Part shown: piece by piece, positions 7,986 through 30,038 of the stretch
How positions within the stretch are numbered: the first letter of the stretch is position 1
How the letters are laid out: each line of letters begins with the position of its first letter
DNA from: Gammaproteobacteria bacterium
Lineage (GTDB): Bacteria; Pseudomonadota; Gammaproteobacteria; Pseudomonadales; Azotimanducaceae_A
Direction of reading: 5' to 3'
DNA: 32,798 nt
Assembly: GCA_012960755.1 (NCBI GenBank)
Contig: DUAT01000053.1
Span: forward strand, 1 to 32,798
Notes under the pieces: model-generated
Told to the model about the DNA's origin: nothing
The model's database searches: none
The model's input: only the letters and a program-made list of their open reading frames with translations
Program-made: the position numbers and the translations under genes

Positions 7986-7992
7986 GGGGCCG

Positions 7993-8202: not shown

Positions 8203-8238
8203 TTTAACAAGCGAGCCGCAAGTGTAACCCTCCCAAAA

Positions 8239-8517: not shown

Positions 8518-8568
8518 AACATGCCTGGATAAACAAGCCAAATCACCCCTGCCCGACCTAAAAGTTGC

Positions 8569-8731
8569 CTAAGTGATCAACCCGCTCACCTGTAAGCCAG
8601 TAGATCAGCGCCATGACAGTCATTGACCATCCAAAAGATCATTACGTCACAACGTCCAAAATTTCGGTGAACATCTACAATTGTGATACTTGACCGTTCT
8701 CCCGAATATGTGGTTTATTTGCCTTATTCTC
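8569..8731 (+). repeat. 163-bp IS91-type element end, copy 1
   Basis: This sequence is repeated at 28611-28773 with one mismatch, and its last 38 bases (CCGTTCTCCC...TTATTCTC) again at 30211-30248. It lies just downstream of an IS91-family transposase C-terminus, where that family carries its replication-origin end (oriIS). All three copies stop matching immediately after TTATTCTC, marking the true tip of the element. The tip contains GAATA...TATTC, which can form an imperfect hairpin. Just inside is CTTG (8691-8694 region), the tetranucleotide associated with IS91-family insertion. Confidence 0.75.
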
Positions 8732-8943
8732 AGAATGTTGCGCAAATGGCGTCACTGTCAAAGTGTCGCGTTGGGGAATTTCTCCATGAGATGTCCAACC
8801 AGTTAATCCAAATCCATGGTGGTATAGGCATGACAGATGAATTTGATGCAGGTTTGTACCTGAAGCGGGCACGGACATTGGAGACTACTTTTGGGAATCG
8901 ATCATTTCATCGCGATCGATATGCGACCCTGGCGGGGTTCTAA
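8732..8943 (+). pseudogene. C-terminal fragment of an acyl-CoA dehydrogenase
   Basis: Directly after the element tip, the frame reads KCRVGEFLHEMSNQLIQIHG, then GGIGMTDEFDAGLYLKRAR and ends HRDRYATLAGF. This is the highly conserved C-terminal end of acyl-CoA dehydrogenases, including the IQxHGGxGMTxE motif. About 70 residues of a usual 380-400 remain, so FAD and substrate sites are gone. The break coincides with the end of the IS91-type repeat, so the 5' part was removed when the element arrived. A start codon at 8683 would lie in repeat DNA and is not native. Confidence 0.85.
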
Positions 8944-8976
8944 GCCAAACAACCATCGGAAATCATGGGGAATGTG

Positions 8977-9417
8977 ATGAGTGTGCAAATTCGGGCGGCC
9001 AAATTGTCTGACGAAGTACAGTGTATGGAATTACTGAATTTACTGGGAGAAAAGGCGGGCGAGGCATTTAGCCCATTGGCATCAGAAGTGTTTAAAGGGT
9101 TGCTCGATGAATCAGGTGGCCAGATATTGGTGGCTTCAGACGAAGAGCAATTGTTAGGTATGGTCAGCGTCTCGTATAGCAGGGCCATGCGATATGGTGG
9201 GGAGTATTGCCAGCTTGAAGAACTGATTGTCAACCCGGCAGCGCGAGGTAAAAATGTTGGCGCACTCCTGATGAATGCTATCGTAGATAAAGCCAGGCAA
9301 AGGGGCTGTGCCGATTTCGGACTTTATCTCATCGCAACGACTGAATCGAACCAGTCTTTTTATGAAAAATTTGGCTTTACCAAAGTGGGCTCCGAAATGC
9401 GTCAAAATCTGGGGTAA
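8977..9417 (+). CDS. GNAT-family N-acetyltransferase
   Basis: A 146-residue protein with a single GNAT domain that would transfer an acetyl group from acetyl-CoA to an amine. The acetyl-CoA loop is visible as the V-x-P-x-x-R-G-K/x-x-x-G pattern in VNPAARGKNVGALLMNAIVD (around residues 88-107), and the C-terminal strand has the usual SFYEKFGFTKVG. The substrate cannot be predicted. ATG 8977 is preferred because it follows TGGGGA at good spacing; ATG 8965 is in frame and would add four residues. It starts 33 bases after the acyl-CoA dehydrogenase fragment and may once have shared its operon. Confidence 0.88.
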   Translation: MSVQIRAAKLSDEVQCMELLNLLGEKAGEAFSPLASEVFKGLLDESGGQILVASDEEQLLGMVSVSYSRAMRYGGEYCQLEELIVNPAARGKNVGALLMNAIVDKARQRGCADFGLYLIATTESNQSFYEKFGFTKVGSEMRQNLG

Positions 9418-9784
9418 CTCCGCGCAGCTAGAGCAAATCGGCTGGGCCAGCTTATTTGGCTTCCACAGAATCCTTTAGATACCTGACAAATTCCCGACCA
9501 ATTCCCGACCAATTTCCCCCCCCCGGTGATCGAGACAAAACCAATCTCTACGGTGGCGGTATTTCGATAGCTCGCCGTCTCTCCAATTTCTCCTTAGTGT
9601 AACTTCCAATGATTATTTTCTGCGAATCAGCGCCCGTTGCCTGCCAAGGCTACAGAATTAGCGGCACATTCGATATCTGTTGATAAAGTTATTGAACCTG
9701 TAGACAATAACTTTGAATATCTAGTAAGATAATGATACCAACGATCCAATCTATTGGTCTCGGGGGTGAGAATTCTTAAGGAGA
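9418..9784. other. Intergenic region before the TonB receptor, no gene seen
   Basis: Both strands lack a plausible gene. The only structure noted is a short tandem repeat, AATTCCCGACC twice (9489-9510) plus a degenerate third copy ending in a run of nine C. The 150 bases before the receptor are AT-rich and should hold its promoter, but no unambiguous -35/-10 pair was picked out. Confidence 0.5.
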
Positions 9785-9790
9785 ATGGAG

Positions 9791-11929
9791 ATGTGGACCA
9801 ACAAAATTGTAAAAATAGTCACAGTGGTTTCACTGGCCTGCATGGTACAAATGGGTGTCCAGGCAGCTGAGCAGGAAATTGAAGAGGTGGTGGTAACGGC
9901 GCAGAAACGAGAGCAAGCGGTACAATCAATCCCAATAAGCATCAAAGTCCTGCTGGGTGATATGCTTGAAACCGTCAATGCTGACAGTCTGGATGACATC
10001 ACCCGGCTTGTTCCCAGTATGTCGATGACGGACCTCTCCCGTGGCGGCAATAATGTGCAGATTCGGGGTTTAGGTTCGAATGTGGCCTCGGTTGGGACTG
10101 TTGCGATTTATAATGATGGCATCATTTCGGCTAATCGCATCCAGTCCAGTGGGACCTTCGCCGAACAGGATTCAGCGCTCTATGATGTCGAGCGAATAGA
10201 GGTGCTAAGGGGTCCACAAGGTACGCTGTATGGTGAAGGTTCCTTTGGCGGTGTTATTAATATTCTCTCGAGGCGCCCGAATGCGGAAAAATTTGAAGCC
10301 TCTTTCTCAGGCACCTGGTTTGATACAGACGAGGGTTCTTCAAACAACGCAGATTATGCCGGAATGGTTAATATTCCACTGGTCCAGGACAAGTTAGCCG
10401 TTCGATTGGTTGCTTTTGACTATGACCACGAGGGTTATATCGACGCGGTTAATGTGCTGCCGCTGTTCTTTGGTGGTCCACCCGAGATGGTTGGCGAGGA
10501 TGCCAATACAGAAGGTGTCACTGGCGGTCGAATTATGGTTCAGTGGTCTCCAACAGAGACTTTCGATGCAACGTTGATCTACAAATCAGAAGAAGCCGAT
10601 ATTGGCATCAGCAATTTTGATTCTCCTAACCTGATGGGCACTGTGAACTCCCTTGCAGGGACATCCTTTGCGACGGACCTTACCCAGGCCGTTTTCAGTC
10701 CTACCTTTGGAACGGAAACCGAAACAACAGAAACCATACTCGAAATCAACATTGACCTGCCGATGGGTACGCTGACTTCGATCACAGGTTTCGGAGAAGT
10801 TGATATCCAGAGTCTGTCTGGCCTGAAATCAAGCGGCGAAGCATTTAGTGAAGAAATTCGTCTGGCCTCAACAGCAGGCCGCGCGTTTGACTGGATAGTC
10901 GGTGCCTACTTTCGATCGGCTGAAAAAGATATCAACTTCAACGGTTCGGCCTTCAGGGGCGATGAACTCGATCAATGGTCCGTGTTTGGTGAGATCTACT
11001 GGCCATTAATACAGGATGTCACGGCAACTTTGGGTCTTCGGTATGCAGAACACGATGTTGATGTTGATGACAGGTTAAACGGTTTGGCGACCGTGTCGGA
11101 TTCCTTCGACAATATTTCTCCCAAGATTGCCATCGACTGGCAGTTAAGTGAGGACACGCTCGTCTACGGTTCCATCACCAGCGGCTTCAGAGCCGGTGGT
11201 GCCAACGCTGATGAATCCCTGGGTACAGATCCAAGCTACTCCGTGGGTTTCGATGCGGACGAGATCTGGAACTATGAAATTGGTATGAAATCAGCCCTCT
11301 GGCAGAGTATGGTCACCGTAAACGCTGCACTTTTCTATATCGACTGGACTGACATTCAGATAGATAAAGCCATCACAAGTGTTGTCAGCCCGCCAGTGCA
11401 ATTTATCGTGGTGAATGGCAATGACGCGCACAGTTTCGGGTTTGAAACAGATATCACGATCAGGCCAGCTGAGGGGTGGGAAATTGTATTAGGAGGTTCA
11501 GTGCTTGAGGCGGAATACGATGGTGGTGTTATTGATAGTGCATCAATCGGCCTGGGTATTCCCATCGACGGTATGACGTTACCCAATACGCCGGAATGGT
11601 TGTTCAACGCCTCGGTTGAAAAGAGTTTTGAGATTGGCAGTACAGGTATCGATGCGTATGTTCGTGGTGACTATACCGCCAGGGACAGCTCCTTCGCTGA
11701 TGTGCCCAACGATCCTCCTCCCGGTGGGGATTTCGAAAGTGGATCATTTGAAATGTTCAACCTTCGTGGCGGGCTGCGCAGAAATAACTGGGAAGTTCAG
11801 CTGTTTGCGACAAACCTGTTAGATGAAGAGGGCAGCAGTTTCAATTTCTTCGATGGTGGTTTTGGTGATGTTCATGTGTTCTTAAGACCGAGGACGGTTG
11901 GCGTTAACCTGAAGTTCCGTACGAACTAG
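9791..11929 (+). CDS. TonB-dependent outer-membrane receptor
   Basis: This 712-residue protein should take up a scarce substrate through the outer membrane using TonB energy. A signal peptide (residues 1-25, ending GVQAAEQ) is followed by the TonB box region EEVVVTAQKREQ. The plug domain carries NVQIRGLGS and VLRGPQGTLYGEGSFGGVIN (about residues 85-160), and the rest is beta-barrel ending in an aromatic-rich strand (TVGVNLKFRTN). ATG 9791 is chosen because AAGGAG lies seven bases before it; ATG 9785 is too close. The class (with EEVVVTAQKRE) is often used for siderophores but also for peptides, sterols and sugars. The next gene begins four bases after its stop, and its hydrolase neighbours argue for a peptide or amide substrate rather than iron. 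Confidence 0.95.
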   Translation: MWTNKIVKIVTVVSLACMVQMGVQAAEQEIEEVVVTAQKREQAVQSIPISIKVLLGDMLETVNADSLDDITRLVPSMSMTDLSRGGNNVQIRGLGSNVASVGTVAIYNDGIISANRIQSSGTFAEQDSALYDVERIEVLRGPQGTLYGEGSFGGVINILSRRPNAEKFEASFSGTWFDTDEGSSNNADYAGMVNIPLVQDKLAVRLVAFDYDHEGYIDAVNVLPLFFGGPPEMVGEDANTEGVTGGRIMVQWSPTETFDATLIYKSEEADIGISNFDSPNLMGTVNSLAGTSFATDLTQAVFSPTFGTETETTETILEINIDLPMGTLTSITGFGEVDIQSLSGLKSSGEAFSEEIRLASTAGRAFDWIVGAYFRSAEKDINFNGSAFRGDELDQWSVFGEIYWPLIQDVTATLGLRYAEHDVDVDDRLNGLATVSDSFDNISPKIAIDWQLSEDTLVYGSITSGFRAGGANADESLGTDPSYSVGFDADEIWNYEIGMKSALWQSMVTVNAALFYIDWTDIQIDKAITSVVSPPVQFIVVNGNDAHSFGFETDITIRPAEGWEIVLGGSVLEAEYDGGVIDSASIGLGIPIDGMTLPNTPEWLFNASVEKSFEIGSTGIDAYVRGDYTARDSSFADVPNDPPPGGDFESGSFEMFNLRGGLRRNNWEVQLFATNLLDEEGSSFNFFDGGFGDVHVFLRPRTVGVNLKFRTN

Positions 11930-11933
11930 CTTA

Positions 11934-14246
11934 GTGCGTGGATTGGTCCGCAGGTATTGCGTACTGGTGCTGTTATTGTTGTCAGCTTCTTGCAATACAT
12001 CGGACCAGACAACGACCAGGAGCGAGATGCCTGAACTGACGTTCGACAGGGTGGCGGCCAGATATGCGAAGATAGCTCAACACCGTTCCGGGACGGAAGG
12101 TGATCTGGCCACGGCAGACTGACTGAACGACGAAATGATTGAGCTTGGCATTGAATCCAGTCTGCATCATTGGCCCTTGCGGGTTTTTGAACTGCATGAT
12201 TCAGTGCTGACCCTGGGAACGGCTCAAATTGATTCCATGCCGTTCTGGGATCCGTTACCCACTGGTTTGGATCTGAGGGCACCCCTGGTTGATTGGAATA
12301 GTGCGGAACCAGGTGACGATCTAAACGGTAAAATTGCGCTGTACCGGCACCTTGAAGGCAAATTTGAGGCAGGCTTTAATGTGGCACCGCTGGTTAGTAA
12401 AGCGGCCGAACGCGGTGCCGTCGCGTTTATTATGATTGTGGATCACCCGTTGGATGAGGTCTCTGCGCAGAACGCGGTCGCACCATATCATCAGCTGGCG
12501 CTTGAATTACCTGCTCTGGTCGTTGGCACCAAAAACGCCAAGTTGCTCCTGCAGGCTGCCGCAGAAGGCACTGTCGCGGAATTGTCCCTATCAGGTAGCT
12601 CAAGAAACGGATCAGCTGCCAATGTGTTTGGCAAAATTGATCGCCAGGCGCAACAGACGGTAATCATCACGACAGGTATCAGTGGCTGGTTTGAATCCGT
12701 CAATGAGCGTGCGCCTGGCATTGCGTTATGGCTTGAACTGGCAAAGTGGGCAGTTCAGTCTGATTTTGAAATCAACTTTGTTTTTGCCGCCTTTTCCGGT
12801 CATGAGCTTGCAACCATGGGTGTTGATCACTTACTGCTCGATGACTCGTTACCGCCAGCAGATGAAGTCGCTTTATGGTTGCACCTGGGTGCAGGTCTGG
12901 CGGTAGAGAATGCCTGGCTGAAGGAAACCGCAACCAGTGTCCAGTCATTGGAACCTATTCTGAAGGAGATTTTTAAGCACGATATTGCTGTGCGACCAGA
13001 GGCGAGAATGCCAACCGGGAGTGAACAGTACAAGGCAATGATCGCCGGATATCCTGTGGTTGGGCTCTTTGGTGCTGCCGGGAATATCCACACAAGACTT
13101 GATGTAATTCCTGCCATCAACCGTGAACGTTATGAGAACGTCAGGCGCAGGTTGCAGGACCTGATCATTAGAATGTCTGGTCAAGGGGTCTCACAGGAAT
13201 TGTACTTCCCTGGAGGCAACAGGGATTGGGCCCGACTGGATCCGGAACAGCTGGGTTGGGATATGGACGCGCTGGAAGTGTTCTATGAATTTGCGGAACA
13301 CCAGCATAGTTCCGGGGTCGTGATTCTGAAGGATGGTCGCATTCTTTCTGAAAGATATTGGCCACTCCAGAATCCTAAAATAGCCGGTGAGGTGGGTTAC
13401 CAGGAAGTCTGGTTTCATGGGATGAACGAGCAGGGATGGGCCAGGGAAGATGTCGCATCGGTGCAAAAGAGTGTTATTTCCATCCTTGCCGGTATCTCGA
13501 TAGACAGGGGATTGCTGAATCCGGAGGCGCCGGTTACAGAGTATCTGGGTGAGGGCTGGTCAAACGTCGATAAACAGCGTGAATCGAAAATTCTGGTCAG
13601 ACATTTGATGTCCATGACGGGTGGGGTGAGTGAAACACTGGACTTAAGATTCCCCGCCGGAGAGCAATGGGAATATATCAATAAGGCATACTCGCTGGTT
13701 AACGATGTCATCCAGGTTGCCACCGGTCGATTACCAAATGAGTTTACTTCCGAATGGCTGACAGACCCCATAGGCATGAAGAGATCTGGATGGATCGAGC
13801 GATCGGAGTTCTTCCGCCAGTGGAATATGAACGGTTTTGTAACCGATGCGCGGGACCTGGCGAGGTTCGGCTTATTGATACAGGCAAAAGGGCGATGGCG
13901 GGATAAACAAATTGTATCCAGTGGCTACCTGGACCAGGCATTAAGTCCTTCCCAGGAACATAACCCATCCTATGGCTGGTTGTGGTGGCTGAATAATGAA
14001 GCGGGCTGGCGCTGGGTGGGTGGTGATGAAAATATAAACAGCGGCAAAATGATACCGGCTGGGCCTGTTGATCTTGTCAGCGCCATGGGCAATTCGGATC
14101 GCCGCTGTTATGTCGCGTCAGGTCTTGGGCTGGTGGTGACGCGAACCGGCTCAACCGGCAGATTAAATGATGATGGCAGCCCGGTGTCCGGTGGTGCGTT
14201 CGATCGCGAGTTCTGGCGGCTGTTGTCAAAGGCGCTGCCAGAATGA
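11934..14246 (+). pseudogene. Lipoprotein: PA/M28-like region fused to serine beta-lactamase-fold hydrolase, interrupted by TGA
   Basis: Starting from GTG 11934, a lipoprotein signal (VLLLLSASC) and about 40 more residues run into a TGA at 12120-12122. The same frame continues for another 2.1 kb. The surrounding sequence (ATAD-stop-LNDEMIELG) fits an M28 peptidase helix where Trp (TGG) is expected, so one base change explains the break. Of the 770 codons, roughly 110-230 resemble a protease-associated domain and 240-400 an M28 region whose metal ligands look degenerate (FSGHELATMG instead of GEE). From 430 on it has a beta-lactamase-fold domain with Ser509 in SVQK and EYINKAYSL as second motif. 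ATG 12135 could restart a protein lacking export. It is four bases after the receptor gene and likely cotranscribed. Confidence 0.8.
12120..12122 (+). other. In-frame TGA inside the M28/beta-lactamase lipoprotein gene
   Basis: The frames before and after this codon are the same (start 11934, next ATG 12135, difference divisible by three). TGA is used as a normal stop elsewhere in the window (for example 14244-14246), so the genetic code is standard. The next base is C, a context known for weak UGA termination, so partial read-through is conceivable. A sequencing error or a real nonsense mutation is simpler. Confidence 0.85.
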
Positions 14247-14263
14247 TTTCCCGGGTTAACCGG

Positions 14264-15358
14264 TCAGATGAGTTGCCTGACATGATCGATAACAAACCCG
14301 GGATGTTCGTAAGGAAACATGTGCGAGGATCCCGCTGGTGCCAGTACTTTTTCGCCTTTGCCGGATAACTGAACTTGTTGTTCGTTTGATTCGTTGAGCG
14401 TCTTCCAGAAATTTGATTCCTGCCGTGGTGAAAGTTCCAGCAGTTCCCGTAATTGCTTTTCGGTACTCGCGATTTCTTCTGCAGATGGATTCGCCAGTAG
14501 CAAACGTAATGGAATGTCACCCAATGCACCCTGCCCGATGACCATATCAAATGGATTATTCATCGCTGCCCTGAAAGTTGCCGCTTCCGCAATAACAGAT
14601 TTAGGTTGCAGGGAGTTTCTGTTGATGACCTCTGCGTGCTGACTTAAACACCGGTAGAAATCGCTTGTTTTGTCATCAATCTCGGGATCGCCAACCCGCG
14701 TTAACCCGAAGTGAAACCCGAGTGCCCGCCACGGTGCCAGTTGCATCAGCCTGCCAAACGAAAGATTCCCGAGGATGCTGACGTTGACTGGTGGTGTTGG
14801 ATCCATCAAGACAAGTCCGGCGACCAGGTCAGGATAATGATGCGCGAAGTTAAGGCTGAAAAGACCGCCAAACGAGTGCCCGGCAAGAACGAAAGGGCCT
14901 TGTTCGCCTGCAGTTTCCAACAGATTTTTCAGGTGCCGTACTTCACTTTCGATTGTTATCGGTAAGGTGGACAGGTCGCTCCAGCCGGCACCAACCCGGT
15001 CGAAGAGAATTGATCTTGTTTCTGTGCGAATCATTTCATGTAGATGGAACATCACCAGACCCTCACCGTGCCCGCCGCCAACCCAGATGACGGGGTAATG
15101 GGTGCCCTTTTCTCCCTCGGCGAGGATATGTGTTTTGACTCCATCGACTACAAATACGCTGCCAGGCGTTACGTCAGACAAGGAATCCACCAATTTGAAT
15201 TTCAGGACACCTGAAAATAATAGCGCGGTTGTTATAAACAAAATGATAGAAAATATTGCGGAAACGGGGGTAACCGCCAGCGCTATGAGAAATACCCCTG
15301 ACGTGATGTAGAGGCCTGCATTTTTACCTGCAAGGAACTGGAGTATTGTATTTCGCAT
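14264..15358 (-). CDS. Membrane-anchored alpha/beta hydrolase
   Basis: A 364-residue enzyme with two N-terminal transmembrane helices (about residues 15-32 and 34-52) followed by an alpha/beta-hydrolase domain. The nucleophile elbow is GHSFGG (Ser162); the oxyanion region is in VIWVGGGHGEG and a C-terminal histidine is available in GSSHMFPYEHP. It should hydrolyse esters or amides at the membrane. Start: the ATG at 15358 shares one base with the TAA of the upstream gene (TAATG), a classic translational-coupling junction; the longer open frame to 15403 is not needed. It is the last gene of the minus-strand operon transporter - beta-lactamase-fold hydrolase - alpha/beta hydrolase, and converges with the lipoprotein gene ending at 14246. 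Confidence 0.88.
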   Translation of the reverse strand: MRNTILQFLAGKNAGLYITSGVFLIALAVTPVSAIFSIILFITTALLFSGVLKFKLVDSLSDVTPGSVFVVDGVKTHILAEGEKGTHYPVIWVGGGHGEGLVMFHLHEMIRTETRSILFDRVGAGWSDLSTLPITIESEVRHLKNLLETAGEQGPFVLAGHSFGGLFSLNFAHHYPDLVAGLVLMDPTPPVNVSILGNLSFGRLMQLAPWRALGFHFGLTRVGDPEIDDKTSDFYRCLSQHAEVINRNSLQPKSVIAEAATFRAAMNNPFDMVIGQGALGDIPLRLLLANPSAEEIASTEKQLRELLELSPRQESNFWKTLNESNEQQVQLSGKGEKVLAPAGSSHMFPYEHPGFVIDHVRQLI

Positions 15359-17025
15359 TATCGTTTTACCAGACTTCGCTTTTCGAACCTGACATCCAGG
15401 CACCGGCTCAGGTTATAGCGAAGCCCATTGACCTGATTCGATTCATCACGTGTGAAAAGGATCTGAACATTCGTGCTAGATGGCTCGCCGGCAATAACGC
15501 TGGTGAACAAATCTCCAGTGACGTGATTGAATTCTTTCCAGACCAGATTCCTCAAGGGTGATGTTAGTTCGATCTCCACGCCTGTATTGTGAACGGTCAC
15601 CAGATGTGTCTCTTGTAATACGTCACTCCAGTACTGGCCTTCATAATCTGCCAGCTGTGTAAGGTGGCGGTCAGGCGAATCGACTGGTTTTGTCAAATTG
15701 ATCACCGGTGTGTTGCCCAGTACAAGTTTAAAACCATTCCCTTCCAAAACATTCCCTTCACTCGTCGAAAGTATGATTTTCAGGGGAGAGCCTGTTTTCA
15801 AACCAATAAAGGTATTGTGGCCTGAATTTTTTAGACAATGTCTTTCTCCCAGGAAGTAACAGACCCACGCATCCTGCTCCCGGGCAGTCTCCAGAATCAG
15901 CGCGTCAGTTTCGGATGCGAAACATCCTAACGGCAGTTCCATTCCAGCTTCTGGGATTGATGACGAAACACCGGCGTGTTCAGTTTGACCCGGTATAATT
16001 CCTGCGATCTTATCTGGTGTTTCCAGCAGTCCCGGGTCAAAAACATTGGTGAACAAGATGATACCCAGGTCCCTGTCAGGGAAATACGCGAAATCACATA
16101 GATAACCCGGCATTCCCCCCGCATGACTGACTTTAAGTTCGCCGGATTGCCGCGTCACATTGATTCCGCAGCGATATTCAATCAGCTGGCCGTCGTTCAG
16201 GCGGTTCTCGGCTTCCAGGCGATGACGGAAATCAGGACCAAATAACTCATCGTTTCGATAATTGTGAAACCATCTAACCATATCATTGAGTGTTGAGACC
16301 ACACCGCCGTCACCGGAAAGCTCGACCAGCATCAAGCCGTCTTCGTAGTCGCCATCTTCGTGTGGCACATAACCACGAGCCGCATGAGGTGTTGAACTTG
16401 CCATCTCAGGTGCGAGTTTCGAATTTAACATGCCAAGCGGTTCGAATATTTCAGTCTGCATAAAGTCAGCTATCGTGGCCCCTGAAAGTCGCTCGATGAT
16501 GGATGAAAGCAGGACATAGTTGGTATTGGAGTAGGTGCAATTATCCCCCGGTTGAAACATCAGGGATGTGTCGCGGGTTAATAATTCGGTTATTTGCGAG
16601 CGTGAAATATTGTTTTCAACCCCCAGGCCTGAAAACAACAACATATTCAGACCATCCCTGAAGCCGCTGGTCATGGTCAACAAGTGGTTAACTGAAATTC
16701 GGGCACCAAACTCCGGCAGTTCCGGAAGATGTTGTCGAATATCGTCCTCCAGATTCAGTAACCCCTTGTTTTCGAGGATAAGAATGCAGGTGGCGCACAT
16801 ATGTTTGGTGGTAGAGCCGAGCCTAAGGATGGTATCGGCCGTAAAAGGCACATCGTCTTCAAGATTGGCAACCCCATATCCACGTTGATGGATAACGATT
16901 CCCTGGGAGACAACGGCCAGATTAACGCCGGGGCTGTGGGGTTTATCGTATTCGCTAAAGAGTGCATCAATCTGGCTCGAATAGTCGCCAGCTATCCCTG
17001 ACTTACTGAGCGTCACGCCTGACAT
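15358..17025 (-). CDS. Serine beta-lactamase-fold hydrolase (class C/EstB/D-aminopeptidase-like)
   Basis: The 555-residue protein has the full active-site set of the beta-lactamase/penicillin-binding-protein fold: Ser71-x-x-Lys74 (STTK), Tyr165-Ser-Asn167 (YSN) and His301-Ala-Gly (HAG). The catalytic domain ends near residue 345; the remaining 200 residues form a beta-rich C-terminal region as in D-aminopeptidases and related esterases. There is no signal peptide, so it is cytoplasmic, which argues against a role in antibiotic resistance or cell-wall synthesis and for hydrolysis of an imported amide, ester or D-amino-acid peptide. Its start overlaps the transporter gene by 13 bases, and its stop overlaps the next hydrolase start, so all three are translationally linked. 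Confidence 0.9.
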   Translation of the reverse strand: MSGVTLSKSGIAGDYSSQIDALFSEYDKPHSPGVNLAVVSQGIVIHQRGYGVANLEDDVPFTADTILRLGSTTKHMCATCILILENKGLLNLEDDIRQHLPELPEFGARISVNHLLTMTSGFRDGLNMLLFSGLGVENNISRSQITELLTRDTSLMFQPGDNCTYSNTNYVLLSSIIERLSGATIADFMQTEIFEPLGMLNSKLAPEMASSTPHAARGYVPHEDGDYEDGLMLVELSGDGGVVSTLNDMVRWFHNYRNDELFGPDFRHRLEAENRLNDGQLIEYRCGINVTRQSGELKVSHAGGMPGYLCDFAYFPDRDLGIILFTNVFDPGLLETPDKIAGIIPGQTEHAGVSSSIPEAGMELPLGCFASETDALILETAREQDAWVCYFLGERHCLKNSGHNTFIGLKTGSPLKIILSTSEGNVLEGNGFKLVLGNTPVINLTKPVDSPDRHLTQLADYEGQYWSDVLQETHLVTVHNTGVEIELTSPLRNLVWKEFNHVTGDLFTSVIAGEPSSTNVQILFTRDESNQVNGLRYNLSRCLDVRFEKRSLVKR

Positions 17026-18413: not shown

Positions 18414-18420
18414 AATTCAA

Positions 18421-18460
18421 TTGAATCATGGTTCAATAAAATATTCCACATGTTTGAATA
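18421..18460. promoter_or_regulatory. Candidate TetR operators upstream of the transporter operon
   Basis: TTGAATCATGGTTCAA (18421-18436) is a 16-bp inverted repeat with only two non-matching pairs. Fourteen bases on, ATGTTTGAATA (18450-18460) resembles the sequence ATGTTTGAACAT (reverse of 19239-19250). Both lie just upstream of the transporter start and just downstream of the TetR gene's stop. Confidence 0.4.
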
Positions 18461-18505
18461 AGTTGTCCTTTTATAAACATGCACCGAACAATTCTTTGTG
18501 GAGTA

Positions 18506-19105: not shown

Positions 19106-19238
19106 TGAATTTCCTTCAGTTAATGAATCTTCAAAGCATTTATCCTACCTGAACGCAGGGTAAAAATCTTTGAATTTTGCAACGGCGATCAGTGATATCC
19201 TATTGATCAGTGAATCATAAGTATCTTATAGTTACTTA

Positions 19239-19250
19239 ATGTTCAAACAT
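19239..19250. promoter_or_regulatory. Candidate operator between the TetR and iminopeptidase genes
   Basis: ATGTTCAAACAT is a palindrome except for its two central bases. It lies 26 bases before the iminopeptidase start and in the divergent promoter region of the TetR gene, and shares the TTGAA/TTCAA half-site with sites near 18421-18460 and 23397-23448. Confidence 0.4.
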
Positions 19251-19275
19251 CCTGATCTGCGGAGAAAGCTAAACG

Positions 19276-20235: not shown

Positions 20236-20278
20236 GTATCTCAACGGCCGCAGAATGAATCCCGGTACAACAGTGTGC

Positions 20279-23200
20279 TTAATCCGAAGTAGCGTATGGA
20301 CTTGCCTCGGAAACAGCATGCAGGAATTCCCGCTCCAGGATGAGAAGCGGCAGTGAACCATGACGCAACAAGAGATCATGGAATTCTGGCAAGTTAAATT
20401 GACCGCCGCGTTTTTCTTTCAGGATTTCTTTTAGTTCCCGAACTTTCATCAATCCCAGTTTGTAGGAACACAATTGGGCAGGGACCGCGCAGGAACGGTG
20501 CACGACATACCTTGCGAATTCTTCGGGCATGCCGGTTTGTTCTACAAACCAGTCGATAGCCTGTTGGCGGGTCCATTTTTTTTGATGAATACCGGTATCT
20601 AAGACCAGATTGACCGTGGATATTAATTCGGCCCGCAGCCCCAGTAAACGATGTTCCGGTGATGTGCCCTGCCCCTGGTCTAACGGCAGGGTTTCCGCGT
20701 ACTTCGCCCAGCCTTCAATGTAGGCATCAAACGTGATGGTGCGGTTGAACAGGGGCAGGGATTCATTTTCCAGTGCCAGACTCAACTGCAGGTGATGGCC
20801 GGGCCAGGTTTCGTGGTAGACCAGCACAGGCAGGTTTGGCGTGTCGGCGACTAACAGGTGATGAAGATTCAGTTCAAATTTGCCGTGGCGGGAGCCATCC
20901 AGCGAGGGCGGATTGTAGGTCTGGTTTCGTGATAACTCTGTAAATTTCGGTATGGCCTCAACCACGACATCTGCAGCGGGCAACTTACGGAACCACTGGG
21001 GTAGTCGTTCTTTGACATCCTGCAATAAGGTCTTTGCCTCCTCGATAAGATGAGTTCGCGTTGCCGGGGTGTCTTCGAGTCGTATCTGGCTTTCCCGGAT
21101 CAGTCGCTCAAACGATTCCTTGATGGGCATAGCAGGGTAACCCAGTTGGGCAAAACCCTGGTTGATATTATTTTGGATAACGCTCGTTTCTTCCAGCCCC
21201 AGCTGGTGAATTTCCTCCGCACTGAGCGCTGTTGTCGTGGCGCCACGCAGCAGAAATTCATAATAGTCCTGCCCGTCCGGTAGTTTCCACACACCGGCGT
21301 CATCGTTCGCTTTCGGTAAGGCCTGTTCCAGGGTGAGCAGCAATTCCCGGTAGGACTCATATATTTCCGGCAGCAGTTGGTTGAGCCGCGCTGATAATAG
21401 TTCGCGACCTTCAGGAGACAGATCAGCTAAGTCAGCCGTGCGGGCTTCGAAGTTTGTAACAATGACATTTTCGTCATTGTCAGGCTGGATAAAGCTTCTG
21501 ATCTCTTCCAGTAAATCTTCAAGAATGAAATCTGGTGGTGTAATGCCTTGATCAAACTGGTCGTTAAACACAACCATGCCATCACGCACCAGACCAGGTA
21601 TCTGGTTCACCCTGCTGACGTAATCCCGGGCATCCCGGGCATGACGAAACGGGTGCAGTTCTCTTAGGAATAAAGGCAGTTCTGACTGGAGCCCAACGGA
21701 AGGGCAGAAAACATATTTATGGGACAGGAAGCGCTCACCCTTTGTCCCAACCCAGTTTCGTTCCTGTGCATAGCTGAGAAAAAATTCAAACACTTCCGCA
21801 CTGATTTTCTGCCCTGGGTCCAGCGTTGCCCTATCCAGAGACTTCAGCTCGGTTGTTAATCGAACTAACAGTTCAACACGACGTCGGTCAGCTGTGTCAT
21901 CTACCTTACTGAACCGGTCCTGGGGACAGTGGATACCGTCGACCTCGAAGACTCCCATATGAGTCGGGTATTCAGGTACTTCCATCATTAGCTCGATGAA
22001 CGCCCGTTGCATAAATTGCTCGAATGGATTACCGGTTTTTTTACGGGCTGTTTCCCTTGTTCCGAAATCAATGGCCAGTTGAACTCCCTGCAGCAATGAA
22101 TTGCGCAGGTCGTCGATGACCATAACCGGTGCCGGAATCGCCGGTTGAAGTCCATAACTCTCGTATACCGTACCGTCCGGCAGGGCATAGATTTCGTTTG
22201 AGAGGGTTGTTTTCCACCCGTTTGGCAGGTGTTTCGCCAGGTCATCCGAAAAAATACCCATCGTTGGCTGGCCGACGTAGGTCACATTTGGCAGTGCGAT
22301 CATACACATGGCAAGTATTTCACCGGCACTGGCTGTGCGTTCTGCGGCAAGCATGTAAACAGGTTTGGAAAACTGCTTGTTTCCTTGAGGTTCCAGGTAA
22401 AGTTGCTGAGTTGGTCCGAACGCTTCGCCCTGTCGAGCACGTTTGGTAAATGCGAGACTTCTTCGGTCGGTAAATCGATTGGCGATAGCGATGCCGATTT
22501 TGTCGAAACCACCACCATTAACTCTGATATCAAGAATCAAGGCGTCGGCGTCTGCGAAATCATGCATTACCGTGTCCAGAATTTGTTCTGCGGCTTCAAG
22601 GTCGTTTTGTAAAAAGGTCGCAAATTCATGTCGTGTTGCCGGCAGGCCGGAGGCATTTTTTGCTTCAGGTGTGTCAGCCAGGCCGTACAAACGCATCACA
22701 TTCAAGTAGGCGACGCCAGGTGCAACAAATCCCCAGTTGAAAAGTCCATTACCCGCCGTCTTACCCTGGTGGTGAAGAATTTCTTCCTGCAAAAACACCT
22801 GGTAGGACTGAATGGTCTTTGCTTCTCCCAGGGAAGCCGAATCCAATTGGAATGCATCCATAAAGGCAGTTTTCAGCGTTAAGTTTTTGTCAGATACAAA
22901 TTCCTCTCCCATGCCGATGAGGTGAACATGATTGTCCTGTAGCGGCGCCAGCATAGTCTTAAAGAGATGGAACAGTTGTTCATCCGTGGTGTTCTGATTC
23001 ACTTCAGCGCGGCAGTTTTTGTAGGTCTGCGACCAGTCGACCTGGTGCCTCCCAAAAAATGCATAATCCTGTTGGAAGGTTTGCCAGAGTACTTCAAAAT
23101 TAAATTCAGGGTCAGAAAATCTGCCTCGTTCGATGTATTGGACATTTGAAGGCATCGAGTCTATTCGATCAAATTCATACTGGGTGATGTCACCGTTAAC

Positions 23201-23380
23201 AGTCAGCACCACGTAATCCTGTTCAATTGAAATGAGACTGAAGCCCAGTTCAAATTGACTGTTGTTTCCGCGCTCGAACTCAACACAGGATACATCTGTT
23301 ATATCGTAGAGCGCATAGTGGTCCTGCTGCACTAACAGCAGCCAGCCATAACCCCTTGATTTCCATATACCTTGAATCAT
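20279..23380 (-). CDS. Two-enzyme fusion: S41 (C-terminal-processing/tricorn-like) protease plus DUF885 metallopeptidase-like domain
   Basis: This 1033-residue protein joins two hydrolases. Residues 1-85 form a beta-rich leader domain. Residues about 90-440 are an S41 serine protease: DNHVHL (149-154), LDIRVNGGGFD (283-293) and the active-site Ser351 in ERTASAGE. Residues about 450-1030 are a DUF885 domain with the putative zinc-binding motif HETWPGHH (His856, Glu857, His862, His863), preceded by VLVY as usual. DUF885 members are mostly separate exported proteins of about 600 residues; here no signal peptide is visible, so the fusion looks cytoplasmic. The frame is uninterrupted, so this is not an assembly of two genes. 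It diverges from the S9 peptidase gene over a 109-base promoter region with TTGAA/TTCAA dyads. Confidence 0.9.
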   Translation of the reverse strand: MIQGIWKSRGYGWLLLVQQDHYALYDITDVSCVEFERGNNSQFELGFSLISIEQDYVVLTVNGDITQYEFDRIDSMPSNVQYIERGRFSDPEFNFEVLWQTFQQDYAFFGRHQVDWSQTYKNCRAEVNQNTTDEQLFHLFKTMLAPLQDNHVHLIGMGEEFVSDKNLTLKTAFMDAFQLDSASLGEAKTIQSYQVFLQEEILHHQGKTAGNGLFNWGFVAPGVAYLNVMRLYGLADTPEAKNASGLPATRHEFATFLQNDLEAAEQILDTVMHDFADADALILDIRVNGGGFDKIGIAIANRFTDRRSLAFTKRARQGEAFGPTQQLYLEPQGNKQFSKPVYMLAAERTASAGEILAMCMIALPNVTYVGQPTMGIFSDDLAKHLPNGWKTTLSNEIYALPDGTVYESYGLQPAIPAPVMVIDDLRNSLLQGVQLAIDFGTRETARKKTGNPFEQFMQRAFIELMMEVPEYPTHMGVFEVDGIHCPQDRFSKVDDTADRRRVELLVRLTTELKSLDRATLDPGQKISAEVFEFFLSYAQERNWVGTKGERFLSHKYVFCPSVGLQSELPLFLRELHPFRHARDARDYVSRVNQIPGLVRDGMVVFNDQFDQGITPPDFILEDLLEEIRSFIQPDNDENVIVTNFEARTADLADLSPEGRELLSARLNQLLPEIYESYRELLLTLEQALPKANDDAGVWKLPDGQDYYEFLLRGATTTALSAEEIHQLGLEETSVIQNNINQGFAQLGYPAMPIKESFERLIRESQIRLEDTPATRTHLIEEAKTLLQDVKERLPQWFRKLPAADVVVEAIPKFTELSRNQTYNPPSLDGSRHGKFELNLHHLLVADTPNLPVLVYHETWPGHHLQLSLALENESLPLFNRTITFDAYIEGWAKYAETLPLDQGQGTSPEHRLLGLRAELISTVNLVLDTGIHQKKWTRQQAIDWFVEQTGMPEEFARYVVHRSCAVPAQLCSYKLGLMKVRELKEILKEKRGGQFNLPEFHDLLLRHGSLPLLILEREFLHAVSEASPYATSD

Positions 23381-23396
23381 TGCAGTAACTGAATTT

Positions 23397-23448
23397 ATGG
23401 TTTGAACGAAGAGACAATAACACAGAACCCTTGTTCAATACATTTGAA
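23397..23448. promoter_or_regulatory. Candidate operators in the divergent S41-DUF885 / S9 promoter
   Basis: ATGGTTTGAAC (23397-23407) resembles the half-palindromes near the TetR gene. At 23434-23448 TTCAA and TTGAA form a perfect dyad separated by five bases. Both lie between the divergent peptidase genes and could bring them under the same TetR regulator. Confidence 0.35.
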
Positions 23449-23489
23449 AGTGTATTATATCCCTTTAATTAATGCTGTAGGTAGGCGAT

Positions 23490-25628
23490 ATGCACTGGCT
23501 GAACGTAAAACAGGCTTTCATGGTGATCGCAGTGACGATTATTTCCGTTGCCGGCTGTTCTGGCGAAAGCGCTAACCAGGCGTCAAAATCGGTAGATCTT
23601 GTTAAAGCCGCCCCGGCCGCAAAGGTCCTGCCGGAACTGTTGCCACTCCAGCTGCTTCTTGCCCAGGAGGAATTCCTCGCTCCCCAGATCAGTCCTGATG
23701 GACATTGGATCAGCTATATTGCGCCCCTGGAAGATGTGCCAAATTTTTACGTTGCACCGGTGGATGACCCGCAAAATGGCAAGCCAGTCACTCATTTTAC
23801 ACATAGAGGTGTGCAGGCTACAGACGTCAGCGGCGAGGTAATGTATGTCTGGCATAGTGATAGCAATCACCTGATCTATCCGAAAGATTATGATGGTGAT
23901 GAGAATTGGGACATTCACATTGTTGATACCACCACGGGCAAAGATCAAAACCTGACGCCTTCCCCAGGTGTTAAAACAACGATTATCGCCTATGATCGAA
24001 AATTCCCGGACCAGGTTGTCATTCAGGCAACCGAACGTCATCCCATGCTGCCGGATGTGTATCAGCTTGACCTTAAAAGCGGTGAACGGACCAGTGTCTT
24101 CGTTAATCCTGGCACTGCGTTGGCTTTCCTTGCAGATGGTGATTTGAAACCTCGACTGGGCATCGCTTTGAATGCTGCGGGCGGTATTGACATCACGCGG
24201 GTGATTGAGGGCAAAGAATTGGCGCCTTTTCTCACAATTTCTGCCGAAGATCTGCCAGCGGTAACGACGTCTGCGTACCAGAAGATCTTTCGGATGGACC
24301 CGCTTAATGAACTCCTTTATCTGTACGATGTGGAAGGTCGTGATACCACGGCGTTTATTAGCCTGAATTTATCTACGGGAAAGAAACATGCCATCGCGCA
24401 TGATGAACGTGCTGATCTGGCTGGCATCCTCTATGAACCCATCACTAACAAACCACTTGCCTATGCTACAAACTGGACCCGTACAGCATGGCATGCGATA
24501 GATGACTCGGTGAAAGCTGATATTGAATTCCTGAATCTCAAGTCAGAAGGAGATTGGTGGGTCGTTAGCCAGACCGATGACAATAACAAGTGGATCATCC
24601 GCGATATGCTGTCACACAAGCCGATTCGTTTCTTCATCTACAATCGAAGCGAAAGGACTGTGGTTGATCTTTTCACCAGTACACCCGCACTGGAAGGGCT
24701 GGCGCTTTCAAAGTTGCACCCTTATACGGTTCGTACCGATGATGGGCTGGACCTGGTTTCGTATCTGATGTTGCCACCCTGGCTCGACCCGGATGAGGAT
24801 GGTCGACCGTCCGAGCCGGTGCCTACGCTGGTTCTGGTGCACGGCGGTCCCAGCGATGAACGTGCAGTTTTTGCATTTGGTCCGTTCCTGCACTGGCTGG
24901 CGAATCGCGGCTATGGAATTCTGTATGTAAACTTTCGTGGATCCGCTGGTTTTGGCAAGGCGTATATGAATGGTCAAACGCGGGAATGGGGCGGCAAAAT
25001 GCACCAGGATGTGCTTGACCAGGTCGACTGGGCGATTGCTGAAAAAATTGCTGATCCGAACAGGGTTGCCATCATGGGCGGCAGTTACGGTGGTTACGAG
25101 GTGCTGGTGGCGATGACCATGACACCGGACAGATTTGCCTGTGGAATCGACCTGGTTGGACCCTCAAACCTCGAAATATTTATGCCCCATTGGGATGAAG
25201 ACCGGATGGGTGTGGTTCTGGGTGATCCGCGCACCGAAGAGGGTAGAGGTTTCCTTCGATCCCGATCACCCATTAATTTTGCGCACCAGACAAAGAATCC
25301 AGTACTGATCGGGCAGGGCGCAAAGGACTCGAGGGTTCCGCAGTACCAATCTGACCTGATTGTTGATGTCATGAAGGACCATGGTGCTGCCGTAACCTAT
25401 GCGTTATATCCGGATGAAGGCCATGGGTTGATGCGAACAGAAAACAGTTTTTCCTTCTGGGGGATGGCAGAAGTATTCCTTGGAGAATGTCTGGGTGGGC
25501 GCAGTTATCCCATCGGCACTGCCCTTGAAGGCTCAAGTATACAGGTGCCGGTAGGTGCCGAATTTATCCCGGGATTGACAGCCGCTTTGGCTGATCTCAA
25601 AACAGGTGATATCAATGAGCCGGAATAA
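23490..25628 (+). CDS. S9-family prolyl oligopeptidase-like peptidase, lipoprotein
   Basis: A 712-residue serine peptidase that should cleave oligopeptides, often after proline, at the cell envelope. The N-terminus is a lipoprotein signal with SVAGC (Cys23). Residues about 45-420 form the beta-propeller typical of S9 enzymes. The C-terminal catalytic domain has HGGPSDERA (oxyanion region), VNFRGSAGFGKAY, the nucleophile motif GGSYGGYE (Ser532), Asp613 (GAKDSRVP) and His645 (DEGHG). Length is as expected for DPP/acylaminoacyl-peptidase-type S9C enzymes. Its 3' end overlaps the aminotransferase gene by 14 bases, so the two are translationally coupled: peptide cleavage outside and nitrogen handling inside are made together. 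Confidence 0.93.
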   Translation: MHWLNVKQAFMVIAVTIISVAGCSGESANQASKSVDLVKAAPAAKVLPELLPLQLLLAQEEFLAPQISPDGHWISYIAPLEDVPNFYVAPVDDPQNGKPVTHFTHRGVQATDVSGEVMYVWHSDSNHLIYPKDYDGDENWDIHIVDTTTGKDQNLTPSPGVKTTIIAYDRKFPDQVVIQATERHPMLPDVYQLDLKSGERTSVFVNPGTALAFLADGDLKPRLGIALNAAGGIDITRVIEGKELAPFLTISAEDLPAVTTSAYQKIFRMDPLNELLYLYDVEGRDTTAFISLNLSTGKKHAIAHDERADLAGILYEPITNKPLAYATNWTRTAWHAIDDSVKADIEFLNLKSEGDWWVVSQTDDNNKWIIRDMLSHKPIRFFIYNRSERTVVDLFTSTPALEGLALSKLHPYTVRTDDGLDLVSYLMLPPWLDPDEDGRPSEPVPTLVLVHGGPSDERAVFAFGPFLHWLANRGYGILYVNFRGSAGFGKAYMNGQTREWGGKMHQDVLDQVDWAIAEKIADPNRVAIMGGSYGGYEVLVAMTMTPDRFACGIDLVGPSNLEIFMPHWDEDRMGVVLGDPRTEEGRGFLRSRSPINFAHQTKNPVLIGQGAKDSRVPQYQSDLIVDVMKDHGAAVTYALYPDEGHGLMRTENSFSFWGMAEVFLGECLGGRSYPIGTALEGSSIQVPVGAEFIPGLTAALADLKTGDINEPE

Positions 25629-26997
25629 CCAGCCGTTCCTTTCAGATATCGCAAACCTGGTTCACGGTTACACCGACCTGTCTGGCATTCAGCAGAGTGG
25701 GCCTGTCATTATCGAACGGGGCGAGGGTGTGCGCGTATTTGATAGTGCCGGTAAAGGTTATATCGAAGCCGCAGCGGGTATGTGGTGCACGGCGCTGGGG
25801 TTTAGTGAACTTGAGCTCGTCGATGCCGCTGTCGAACAGCTAAATAAACTGCCCTATTACCACACACTTGCTTCAAGGTCGGTTAATCCCGCGATTGAGC
25901 TGGCAGAGAAGCTGGCTGAACTTGTGCCCATCGATAACGCGCACATCTATCTCGCGGTTACCGGCTCAGAGGCGAATGACTTTCTGGTGAAATTTCTATG
26001 GTACTACAATAACGCCATTGGACGACCTCTGAAGAAAAAGATGATAAGTCGCCAGGGTGGTTACCATGGCGCAACTGTTGTGGCATCGAGCCTGACCGGG
26101 CTCACAAAAAATCATGGCATGTTTGATGTGCCTTTGCCGGGATTTTTACACACGGCAGATCCACACTTCTATCGTCATGGTCTGCGTGGAGAAACGGAAG
26201 AAGAATATGTGAACCGAATCGTGGATGAGCTGGAGGCCATGATCATCGCTGAAAACCCGGAGACAATAATGGCGTTTATGGCCGAACCGGTGACAGGAGG
26301 TGGTGGCGTGGTGATACCGCCGCCAACGTATTACGGGAAAATTCAGGAGCTTCTTAAACGGTACGATATTGCTTTTATTGCCGATGAAGTTATCACAGGG
26401 TTTGGTCGCACGGGTGAAATGTTTGGCTGCCAGACATTTGGTATCTCACCGGATGCGATGACCATGGGTAAAGCCTTGTCGTCCGCGTACCAACCTATCT
26501 CCGCTATTGCAATGTCAGATGACATTTACCAGGGATTGGTAAAAGGAAATAACGAAAATGGTCATTACTTTGGTCATGGTCAGACCTATTCCGGTCATCC
26601 TGTCGCCGCTGCCGTGGCCCTCAAGGTACTGGAAATATTTGAAAGCAGAAATATTGTCGAACATGTAAATACAGTCTCCGGTGTATTCACGCAGAGGATG
26701 CAATCCTATCTTCAGCACCCGCTGGTGGGTGATGTTCGATCGGTAGGTCTCATTGGTGCCGTTGAGCTCGTTGCCGGTAAGTCAACAAAAAACGGATTCG
26801 ATCCCCAGGGGATGGTTTCAAGCTTTCTGAAGCAGCGATGTGAAACCCACGGACTGATCGTTCGACCCGTGCAGGCAGGTGATGGTGTTGCATTTTGCCC
26901 GCCACTGATTATCAGTGAAGAAGAGATCGATGAGATGTTCAACTGTTTTGACCTGGCATTGGAAGATACCACCCGTTGGGTAGAGCAAAAAAACTAG
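25615..26997 (+). CDS. Class III PLP-dependent aminotransferase (omega-transaminase type)
   Basis: The 460-residue enzyme should move an amino group between an amine or omega-amino acid and a keto acid using pyridoxal phosphate. The cofactor lysine is Lys286 in MGKALSSAYQPISA; the cofactor-binding Asp lies in FIADEVITGFGRTG, and VTGSEANDFLVKF and GGYHGATVVASSL are the phosphate-binding and substrate regions. The usual class III length and order are present. ATG 25615 is chosen because AGGTGA precedes it by five bases; a GTG nine bases upstream is less likely. It overlaps the S9 peptidase gene by 14 bases. With the adjacent DAO-family oxidase it suggests that the released building block carries an amine or beta/omega-amino group, not only standard alpha-amino acids. 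Confidence 0.92.
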   Translation: MSRNNQPFLSDIANLVHGYTDLSGIQQSGPVIIERGEGVRVFDSAGKGYIEAAAGMWCTALGFSELELVDAAVEQLNKLPYYHTLASRSVNPAIELAEKLAELVPIDNAHIYLAVTGSEANDFLVKFLWYYNNAIGRPLKKKMISRQGGYHGATVVASSLTGLTKNHGMFDVPLPGFLHTADPHFYRHGLRGETEEEYVNRIVDELEAMIIAENPETIMAFMAEPVTGGGGVVIPPPTYYGKIQELLKRYDIAFIADEVITGFGRTGEMFGCQTFGISPDAMTMGKALSSAYQPISAIAMSDDIYQGLVKGNNENGHYFGHGQTYSGHPVAAAVALKVLEIFESRNIVEHVNTVSGVFTQRMQSYLQHPLVGDVRSVGLIGAVELVAGKSTKNGFDPQGMVSSFLKQRCETHGLIVRPVQAGDGVAFCPPLIISEEEIDEMFNCFDLALEDTTRWVEQKN

Positions 26998-27099
26998 CCA
27001 GCTTTAACTAAAGTGGACCCAACCCAGGGACGCAGCCTGGTGTGGATTCAAGCGCAAAAACCCCTAAACTAAATGCCATTCGACCCGGAGGTAAATCAA

Positions 27100-28341
27100 A
27101 TGATTGAAAATGCCGATGTTGTCGTCGTCGGTGGGGGCGTCATGGGATTGTCGGTTGCCTACCAGCTTGCCCGACGTTCAAACTTGAAAATTATTCTGCT
27201 GGAAAAGGGAGCAGGTATTGGAGAAGGATCGACCGGGACGTCTTCTGCAGTCTGTCGTTATCGTTACTCCTTTGATGAAATGGTGCGCCTGGCGCGGGAT
27301 GGTATCAATACCTACACTCACTGGAGTGAATTCACCGGGGTGAAAGTGCCACGTGCTGAATATCATAACGATGGTGTTTTGTGGATGCCGGGCCAGGACT
27401 TGCACTGGGCAGCGAAGGAACATAAACGTATGACCCGGCTGGGAGTCAAGACAGAAGTGTTGGATGACCAGATGGTTTCAGAGCGATATCCCGGTTTAAG
27501 CCTTTGCACAATTGCGCCGGACAGATTAAGCGGCGAGGGACATGATTGTGAAACGGGAGGGCAGCACTACTTTGAATCAGGCGGCGGCTATATTGATCCT
27601 GTTGCTGTTGCAGAAGACCTTGCGGAAGCCTGCCGTCGGGAAGATGTTGATATCAGGTACAACATTTGTGTGGATAAAGTGGAAAGTCTGGCGTCTCAGG
27701 TAACAGGGGTCAGGATGATCGATGGTGAAGTGATTAATACCCCGCGGGTTGTCAATGCGGCGGGACCGTGGTGTAACCGACTATTTAGCGCAATTGGTCT
27801 TGAGGTTCCCTGGACCCTCGAGCCTACCCGGGTCCAGATTCTATATCTAGATCGCCCAGAGGAACTGAAAGGATCACTGCCTGTTTGTGAGGATTTTGCC
27901 GGTGGTATCTATTTTTGTCTGCAGAATCGAGGGCAGCAAATCGTCGTGGGGTCGCTCCGTGAAGAGGACGAGCAGGAAAGAGTTGATTCGTTGGATAAGT
28001 TTAATCGTTTTGCCGACGATGAATTCCTCCATCCCACGTTACATGCACTACACCATCGCCTGCCTGATTTGCCTTACCGGGGCAAGGTTCGAGGGTATTG
28101 CGGTCTCTATACAATGAATCGGGAAGATGTTCATCCTATTGTCGGCGAAACACCCGTAGAAGGATTTTTTGTTGTGAACGGCTTTAGCGGTCATGGGTTC
28201 AAACTGGCTCCCGCAATCGGTGCCTTGCTCGCAAGACAGATTACCGGAGAAGACCGGGAAGGTGATCCAGAGATACCAGATGAATTCCTGGCCTATGACA
28301 GGGCCCCTTTAGTCCTGGAATCGAAGTCGGTCTTAGCCTGA
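27100..28341 (+). CDS. DAO-family FAD-dependent oxidoreductase (sarcosine/glycine/D-amino acid oxidase-like)
   Basis: A 413-residue flavoenzyme expected to oxidise an amine or N-methylated/D-amino acid. The dinucleotide-binding motif VVVGGGVMGLSVAYQLA sits at residues 7-23, followed by EKG...GSTGTSSA, as in sarcosine-oxidase-beta-like DAO proteins that bind FAD. The C-terminal GFFVVNGFSGHGFKLAPAIG segment is the family's second conserved cofactor region. ATG 27100 is preferred: GGAGG lies eight bases upstream and the residue pattern starts directly; ATG 27073 would add nine uncharacteristic residues. It follows the aminotransferase by about 100 bases in the same direction. It is the last complete gene of the 20-kb module. 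Confidence 0.9.
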   Translation: MIENADVVVVGGGVMGLSVAYQLARRSNLKIILLEKGAGIGEGSTGTSSAVCRYRYSFDEMVRLARDGINTYTHWSEFTGVKVPRAEYHNDGVLWMPGQDLHWAAKEHKRMTRLGVKTEVLDDQMVSERYPGLSLCTIAPDRLSGEGHDCETGGQHYFESGGGYIDPVAVAEDLAEACRREDVDIRYNICVDKVESLASQVTGVRMIDGEVINTPRVVNAAGPWCNRLFSAIGLEVPWTLEPTRVQILYLDRPEELKGSLPVCEDFAGGIYFCLQNRGQQIVVGSLREEDEQERVDSLDKFNRFADDEFLHPTLHALHHRLPDLPYRGKVRGYCGLYTMNREDVHPIVGETPVEGFFVVNGFSGHGFKLAPAIGALLARQITGEDREGDPEIPDEFLAYDRAPLVLESKSVLA

Positions 28342-28610
28342 TACTCCTGACGCCCTCGCAGGAAAAATCAATCTTCGGGAAAAAGGTCTCACCACCGGCA
28401 AAATTGTCATTCAGGTAAACCGTTTGTGCAGAACTTAAAAACCGTTAGCATCATAAATCTGCCCGTATTGAAGGCAATAACACTCACGGTTTTCAGGTTC
28501 CGTATATGGGCCAGTTAATCAGTCAGAAGTAACTGACTGGCCTTCGATTCCGTCAAGCGCACTATTAACAGAGTCGTGGTAACATTTTTTGCTATCCAGA
28601 AACTGTCTGA
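28342..28610. other. Non-coding stretch at the end of the module
   Basis: No plausible gene is seen. The main structure is a perfect inverted repeat, CAGTCAG/CTGACTG (28520-28526 and 28533-28539) around AAGTAA; no T-run follows, so it is not a standard intrinsic terminator. The sequence changes abruptly at 28611 into the IS91-type repeat. Confidence 0.5.
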
Positions 28611-28773
28611 CTAAGTGATCAACCCGCTCACCTGTAAGCCAGTAGATCAGCGCCATGACAGTCATTGACCATCCAAAAGATCATTACGTCACAACGTCTA
28701 AAATTTCGGTGAACATCTACAATTGTGATACTTGACCGTTCTCCCGAATATGTGGTTTATTTGCCTTATTCTC
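28611..28773 (+). repeat. 163-bp IS91-type element end, copy 2
   Basis: Identical to 8569-8731 except one base (C/T) and in the same orientation. Unlike copy 1 there is no transposase coding sequence before it, so this copy was either left behind by a one-ended event or has lost its gene. It stops at TTATTCTC, and the next bases belong to a broken recombinase gene. Confidence 0.9.
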
Positions 28774-28838
28774 TTTGAAGAATTGGATAAGCAGTCGAAG
28801 ACGCGATTGATTAAGCTTCAGCAGGATACTGACTGGGC

Positions 28839-29084: not shown

Positions 29085-29115
29085 TTCCTCTATGCCAACT
29101 TGAACGAACTGAAGA

Positions 29116-29131: not shown

Positions 29132-29206
29132 AAATCGGCAATGGTCCTGAACTGAGGAGATAACAATTCGCACAGGACAGCGTTAGGACTATCGTGAGGT
29201 TGTAAT

Positions 29207-30022: not shown

Positions 30023-30038
30023 TTGATTTCCAGTGAGT

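Follow-up and report, generated by a model that had tools for sequence, protein, structure and literature searches.

Putative ISCR-type oriIS ends on both sides of a 20-kb gene block in a gammaproteobacterial contig

In the rolling-circle model, transposition of ISCR elements runs from oriIS to terIS, and one-ended transposition, in which neighbouring DNA is moved, can proceed from oriIS even when terIS is lacking. The downstream (oriIS) side of ISCR1 has been described as variable and often occupied by resistance genes, and complex integrons have been modelled as a circle recombining with another ISCR copy. The 22-mer of the ISCR1 oriIS is printed in PMC13023784, and a length of 232 bp is reported for the ISCR1 region that contains oriIS (PMC6218425). 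For ISCR8, many copies are reported on environmental plasmids, and its nine full sequences were considered too few to judge its capacity for DNA mobilization. A narrow literature search, covering few subscription journals, turned up no study that connects ISCR or IS91 with catabolic clusters. Links between ISCR-like elements and pesticide-degradation genes have been described, and hence a catabolic passenger would be uncommon, yet not unprecedented.

Here, we describe a window (the whole stretch of DNA analysed, 32,798 bp) in which features of these elements recur as remnants. The window shares with ISCR elements (ISCR1, ISCR2; ISCR_clade_Ia) a transposase C-terminus, the register of the oriIS tip, and part of the tip sequence, whereas no full-length ISCR was seen. 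As in ISCR cargo regions (i.e., complex class 1 integrons, sul2/floR neighbourhoods), a gene block lies beside and between like-oriented oriIS ends; in contrast to those regions, the cargo would be catabolic and its movement is a candidate event.

The direct repeat and its ISCR assignment

A 163-bp sequence at 8569–8731 had been noted in a first-pass annotation to recur at 28611–28773 in the same orientation with one mismatch, and both the repeat search and the alignment bore this out. The repeat search delimited a direct repeat of 166 bp, with both copies on the forward strand and a spacing of 20,042 bp (copy 1, 8566–8731; copy 2, 28608–28773), and mismatches at 8568/28610 and 8657/28699. Compared without gaps, the flanks of the two copies agree at 20 of the 100 bases before the repeat and at 23 of the 100 after it, and each of five local alignments of 400-bp flanks, covering every pair but upstream of copy 2 versus copy 3, scored below the maximum of 50 shuffles; thus, the similarity of copies 1 and 2 stops at the limits of the repeat.

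Upstream of copy 1, the open frame at 8191–8517 (forward strand, stop at 8515–8517) matched positions 433–490 of 509 of the NCBIfam family NF052416, ISCR_clade_Ia (E 1.8e-14), in agreement with the earlier annotation, which had placed this copy after an IS91-family transposase remnant. The match spans the C-terminal 58 residues and scores 53 bits, compared with a cut-off of 925 for the full-length protein, because only the C-terminus remains, without the catalytic part of the transposase. The left limit of the remnant is approximate, since the family match begins at residue 39 and the plasmid matches at residue 8, and no Pfam family was above its cut-off in the 8191–8517 fragment. When the fragment was compared with plasmids by tblastn, the 15 matches listed were 41–46% identical, while 274 of 5000 records, outside those listed, had their best place at 60–80% identity. 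One of the listed relatives (H15) sits between tet(X3) and sul2 genes, a context that we take to be that of ISCR2. Among phages, the fragment was found in 7 of 50,697 records, all below 60% identity.

The last 22 bases of the repeat, GTGGTTTATTTGCCTTATTCTC (8710–8731 in copy 1 and 28752–28773 in copy 2), agree with the ISCR1 oriIS of PMC13023784 at 15 of 22 positions in the same register, the first nine bases being identical; mismatches thus number 7 of 22 relative to ISCR1, and 9 of 22 relative to the ISCR2 copy in L004. At one fixed register, at least 15 of 22 matches have a probability of about 2e-5, and across both strands a match of this quality is expected about 0.4 times per simulated window, so that the oriIS argument depends on the fixed register. 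Another match of this quality within the window, at 16830–16851 on the minus strand, was taken as chance. From the transposase stop to the tip the distance is 214 bp, compared with the 232 bp of ISCR1. Judged by these sequence comparisons, the repeats are the 3′ (oriIS) ends of an ISCR-type element of the IS91 family, copy 2 being a solo end of 166 bp without transposase; the initial IS91-type assignment is therefore supported and can be sharpened to ISCR-type oriIS ends by the transposase match, the tip, and the spacing.

Folding energy over 8650–8731 was close to that of shuffled sequences (z −0.25 and −0.48 for the two strands), and no exact 8-bp dyad was present near oriIS. A search for an outward promoter in copy 1 returned one 9/12 match, against 0.7 expected from shuffles, and Rfam and tRNA scans gave no match at their cut-offs. 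In distant mode, the 163-bp repeat had no match in plasmids, and no stretch of viral contigs contained the exact 21-mer of the tip. In genome contigs, the 21-mer occurred once, in a Bacteroidetes MAG and apparently inside a protein-coding gene, and this occurrence was judged to be chance.

Additional tips and truncated genes

The view that the repeat exists in only two copies did not hold, since a third copy, a solo end of 43 bp, was identified at 30206–30248 on the forward strand, its last 38 bp being exact, compared with no such end in 100 shuffles. Copies 1–3 have one identical right end, followed by AGAA, TTTG, and CCCG, respectively, and their left ends vary: copy 1 extends into the transposase gene, and copies 2 and 3 extend back from the tip by 166 and 43 bases, respectively. 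None of the three keeps the 5′ part of the element, and a full-length copy was not found. Classic IS91 targets are the tetranucleotides GTTC/CTTG, and no common tetranucleotide of this kind was seen at the right flanks of the tips. Furthermore, a fourth tip of a different, ISCR2-like type lies at 1499–1520 on the forward strand, with 18 of 22 positions identical to the ISCR2 tip from L004, the best match across 12 simulated windows being 16. A 16/22 match to ISCR2 at 2389–2410 was left out of the tips, as it overlaps another repeat of 54 bp. All four tips point in the same direction, rightward, and end at 1520, 8731, 28773, and 30248.

Genes are cut at these ends. A C-terminal part of an acyl-CoA dehydrogenase (8734–8943, forward strand; PF00441 positions 88–145 of 150, E 1.1e-6) starts at the tip of copy 1, in a frame that is open through the tip, and the C-terminus of an amidohydrolase (30039–30205, minus strand; PF01979 positions 293–342 of 345, E 9.3e-6, at 25.5 bits barely above the cut-off of 25) abuts copy 3 on the left. 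To the right of copy 2, at 28851–29084 on the forward strand, lies what may be a resolvase-like C-terminal helix-turn-helix remnant, its HTH_7 match (E 0.0023) falling short of the Pfam cut-off and its Trp_repressor match (E 2.7e-6) barely exceeding it; no catalytic domain was matched there in Pfam. The stretch 28342–28607, considered as a dehydrogenase remnant, was dropped, having no Pfam match, and the right flank of copy 3 likewise had none.

Other features of mobile or repeated DNA are found towards both ends of the window. An open reading frame for an rve/IS481-like transposase (97–1365, minus strand), barely above the Pfam cut-off and below that of NCBIfam, lies left of the ISCR2-like tip. 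A carbonic anhydrase gene occupies the stretch 2452–3298, preceded by GTTAGGT (2452–2458), which we take to be core-like, and followed by a presumably attC-like stretch (about 3221–3298) ending in GTTAAAT; this may possibly be an integron cassette, and folding of the attC-like stretch was no better than that of shuffles. A 34-bp exact tandem repeat at 3641–3708 resembles, on our assumption, a remnant of group II intron domain V, with no Rfam match at the cut-offs. On the right, a 77-bp exact direct repeat (30505–30581 and 32722–32798) encloses an FAD oxidoreductase gene and finishes exactly at the window end, a layout that would arise if the contig had passed a single time around a loop of 2,217 bp, be it a tandem copy, a circle, or an assembly loop. 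The 8-mer GTAGATAG recurs at 2445–2452, 30505–30512, and 32722–32729, at the edge of two repeat families (54 and 77 bp).

Gene content and base composition of the block

Between copies 1 and 2, the block (8965–28341, both strands) encodes, according to family scans, products from a GNAT protein to a DAO-family oxidase. Together with the GNAT protein are encoded a TonB receptor, a protein with a C-terminal beta-lactamase-fold domain, an alpha/beta hydrolase, an S12 beta-lactamase-fold hydrolase nearest to D-aminopeptidase and below the cut-off of that model, an MFS_2 transporter, a TetR regulator, an S9 peptidase, a prolyl aminopeptidase (above cut-off), and a class III aminotransferase (above the cut-off for PRK06105). 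The DAO-family oxidase comes closest to N-methyl-amino-acid and sarcosine oxidases, without reaching the cut-off. The family scans thereby confirmed a set of receptor, transporter, regulator, peptidases, and amine-handling enzymes between the ends, as had been proposed from the open reading frames, and we infer a role in the uptake and breakdown of unusual peptides. No resistance gene was named by the scans, which covered part of the open reading frames.

At 20279–23380, the block also encodes a Tricorn_C1-S41-DUF885 fusion; among four matches from 7,998 scored candidates, selected by words from the first 500 residues, only its own cluster spans the whole protein. In the Bacteroidetes genome with the tip match, DUF885 was absent (0 of 1), the control being found in 2 of 14. 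In viral contigs, the aminotransferase gave one pattern match and no relative. In plasmids, the aminotransferase and the TonB receptor were below 60% identity in every matched record (1852 and 1627 records, respectively). Genome searches centred on E. coli or on plasmid loci reached no related genome; in the latter, the aminotransferase matched one of four plasmid records, at 32–33% identity. The window from 8000 to 32798 had no match to plasmids in near mode.

Directly left of the ISCR remnant lies an island of 63% GC (3640–8150, forward strand) with a CMD protein, an ORF at 4078–5328, a carboxylate-CoA ligase, and a TauD protein, three of the four genes being assigned by Pfam and ORF 4078–5328 standing outside the family scan. 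GC3 is 0.76–0.82 in the four island genes versus 0.47–0.55 in 13 genes of the block, and the TauD gene to the right of copy 2 has a value of 0.57; the CoA ligase of the island is 78–79% identical to two proteins named Alphaproteobacteria MAG. GC content breaks sharply at about 8.15 kb, left of copy 1, and shows no break at 28.77 kb; past the last block gene, at 28.4 kb, it falls from about 0.50 to 0.41–0.45, a level maintained across copy 2. In four-base statistics (×1000), 28774–30205 differed from the block by 309–316, against 178–205 within the block, in a comparison of a 1.4-kb stretch with 5 kb that carries no length control.

Origin of the arrangement

Since transfer starts at oriIS, an end would be expected to carry the DNA on its transposase side, which for every tip in the window is the left; copy 1 would then not be the carrier of the block, and only copy 2 could be, for which no partner end on the left is needed. 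If any end carried DNA, the 63%-GC island, foreign in composition and on the transposase side, is a good candidate passenger of copy 1. On the other hand, the cargo of ISCR1 frequently lies on the side of oriIS, so the position of the block right of copy 1 does not alone exclude cargo status, and a circle joining an existing copy would leave its cargo between two like-oriented copies, as in the window. The direction argument therefore weakens, and does not exclude, mobilization of the block; movement of the 20 kb as a unit is possible, at well below even odds.

We somewhat favor a reading in which the repeats are solo, 5′-truncated oriIS ends of one ISCR-type rolling-circle element, from several separate events in an IS-rich mosaic region. 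They may stem from individual insertions that were one-ended or abortive, or may be what later decay has spared, the constant right end marking where transposition would start and the left end being variable. The block would then lie between two of these ends, of which there are at least three, and would probably be resident beside the acyl-CoA dehydrogenase gene, the C-terminal part of which is still found next to copy 1. This reading draws on the three copies with a common right end and differing left ends, on the ISCR_clade_Ia C-terminus before copy 1 together with the register match to the ISCR1 oriIS, on the dehydrogenase truncated right of copy 1 and the amidohydrolase truncated left of copy 3, on the description of oriIS-started, one-ended transposition, and on a GC break at about 8.15 kb and none at 28.77 kb. 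Several points count against it: the frequent location of ISCR1 cargo on the oriIS side; the four-base statistics that separate 28774–30205 from the block; the lack of a shared IS91-type target tetranucleotide at the right flanks; the failure to find a full-length copy, and hence a terIS for comparison; and the like orientation of four tips, which independent insertions would give one time in eight.

As an alternative that we consider doubtful, if far from negligible, the block would be an ISCR passenger, transferred from the oriIS of copy 2 leftward through the block, with the block and copy 2 inserted beside an earlier ISCR copy, or with a circle recombined there via the 166-bp repeat. Copy 2 does have the block on its transposase side, the block begins on the left with a truncated gene, such as an arbitrary end point would produce, near-identical direct repeats are expected from circle integration by homology, and both the ISCR1 cargo side and the complex integron model fit such a route. 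Yet neither a second locus, an empty site, nor a circle was seen (plasmids and one genome-contig scan), GC content does not break at copy 2, and the genes of the block, being oriented both ways, do not form a single operon. The S41-DUF885 protein cluster was present on 10 contigs and the aminotransferase cluster on 12; in both cases the longest contig, presumably one and the same, measured 35,938 bp. The ligase cluster of the left flank was on 10 contigs, the longest of 32,807 bp. Some contig thus seems to carry block proteins without the left-flank ligase, which would suit a passenger in another location (unless the ligase is cut or below 90% identical there), although the 35,938-bp contig may merely start at the repeat, where it would have been broken. 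The same difference in longest contig between left flank and block could also reflect misassembly, with segments that belong to different places or genomes brought together at the 166-bp repeats. Usual assembly k-mers are shorter than 166 bp, a strong GC break lies 0.4 kb left of copy 1, and the window ends exactly in the 77-bp repeat. Nevertheless, we regard an assembly error as improbable, as the ligase was found on 10 contigs with a longest length close to the 32,798 bp of the window, a sign that the layout on the left probably arose in more than one assembly, and the GC break is located at the transposase remnant, not at the repeat.

Beyond the preferred reading of solo ends from separate events, the region might be viewed as modules arranged in series, with a like-oriented ISCR oriIS closing off the right side of each (four tips), a broader proposal that we hold to be rather unlikely. 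Such an array would have been built by repeated one-ended ISCR insertions in an environmental bacterium, with the 20-kb block as one module, passenger, or circle.

In brief, ISCR ends as such are already known. The nested solo oriIS ends described here, constant on the right and variable on the left, offer natural junctions at which the start and the stop of such transposition can be studied, and give a hint that metabolic genes are reshuffled in connection with ISCR elements.
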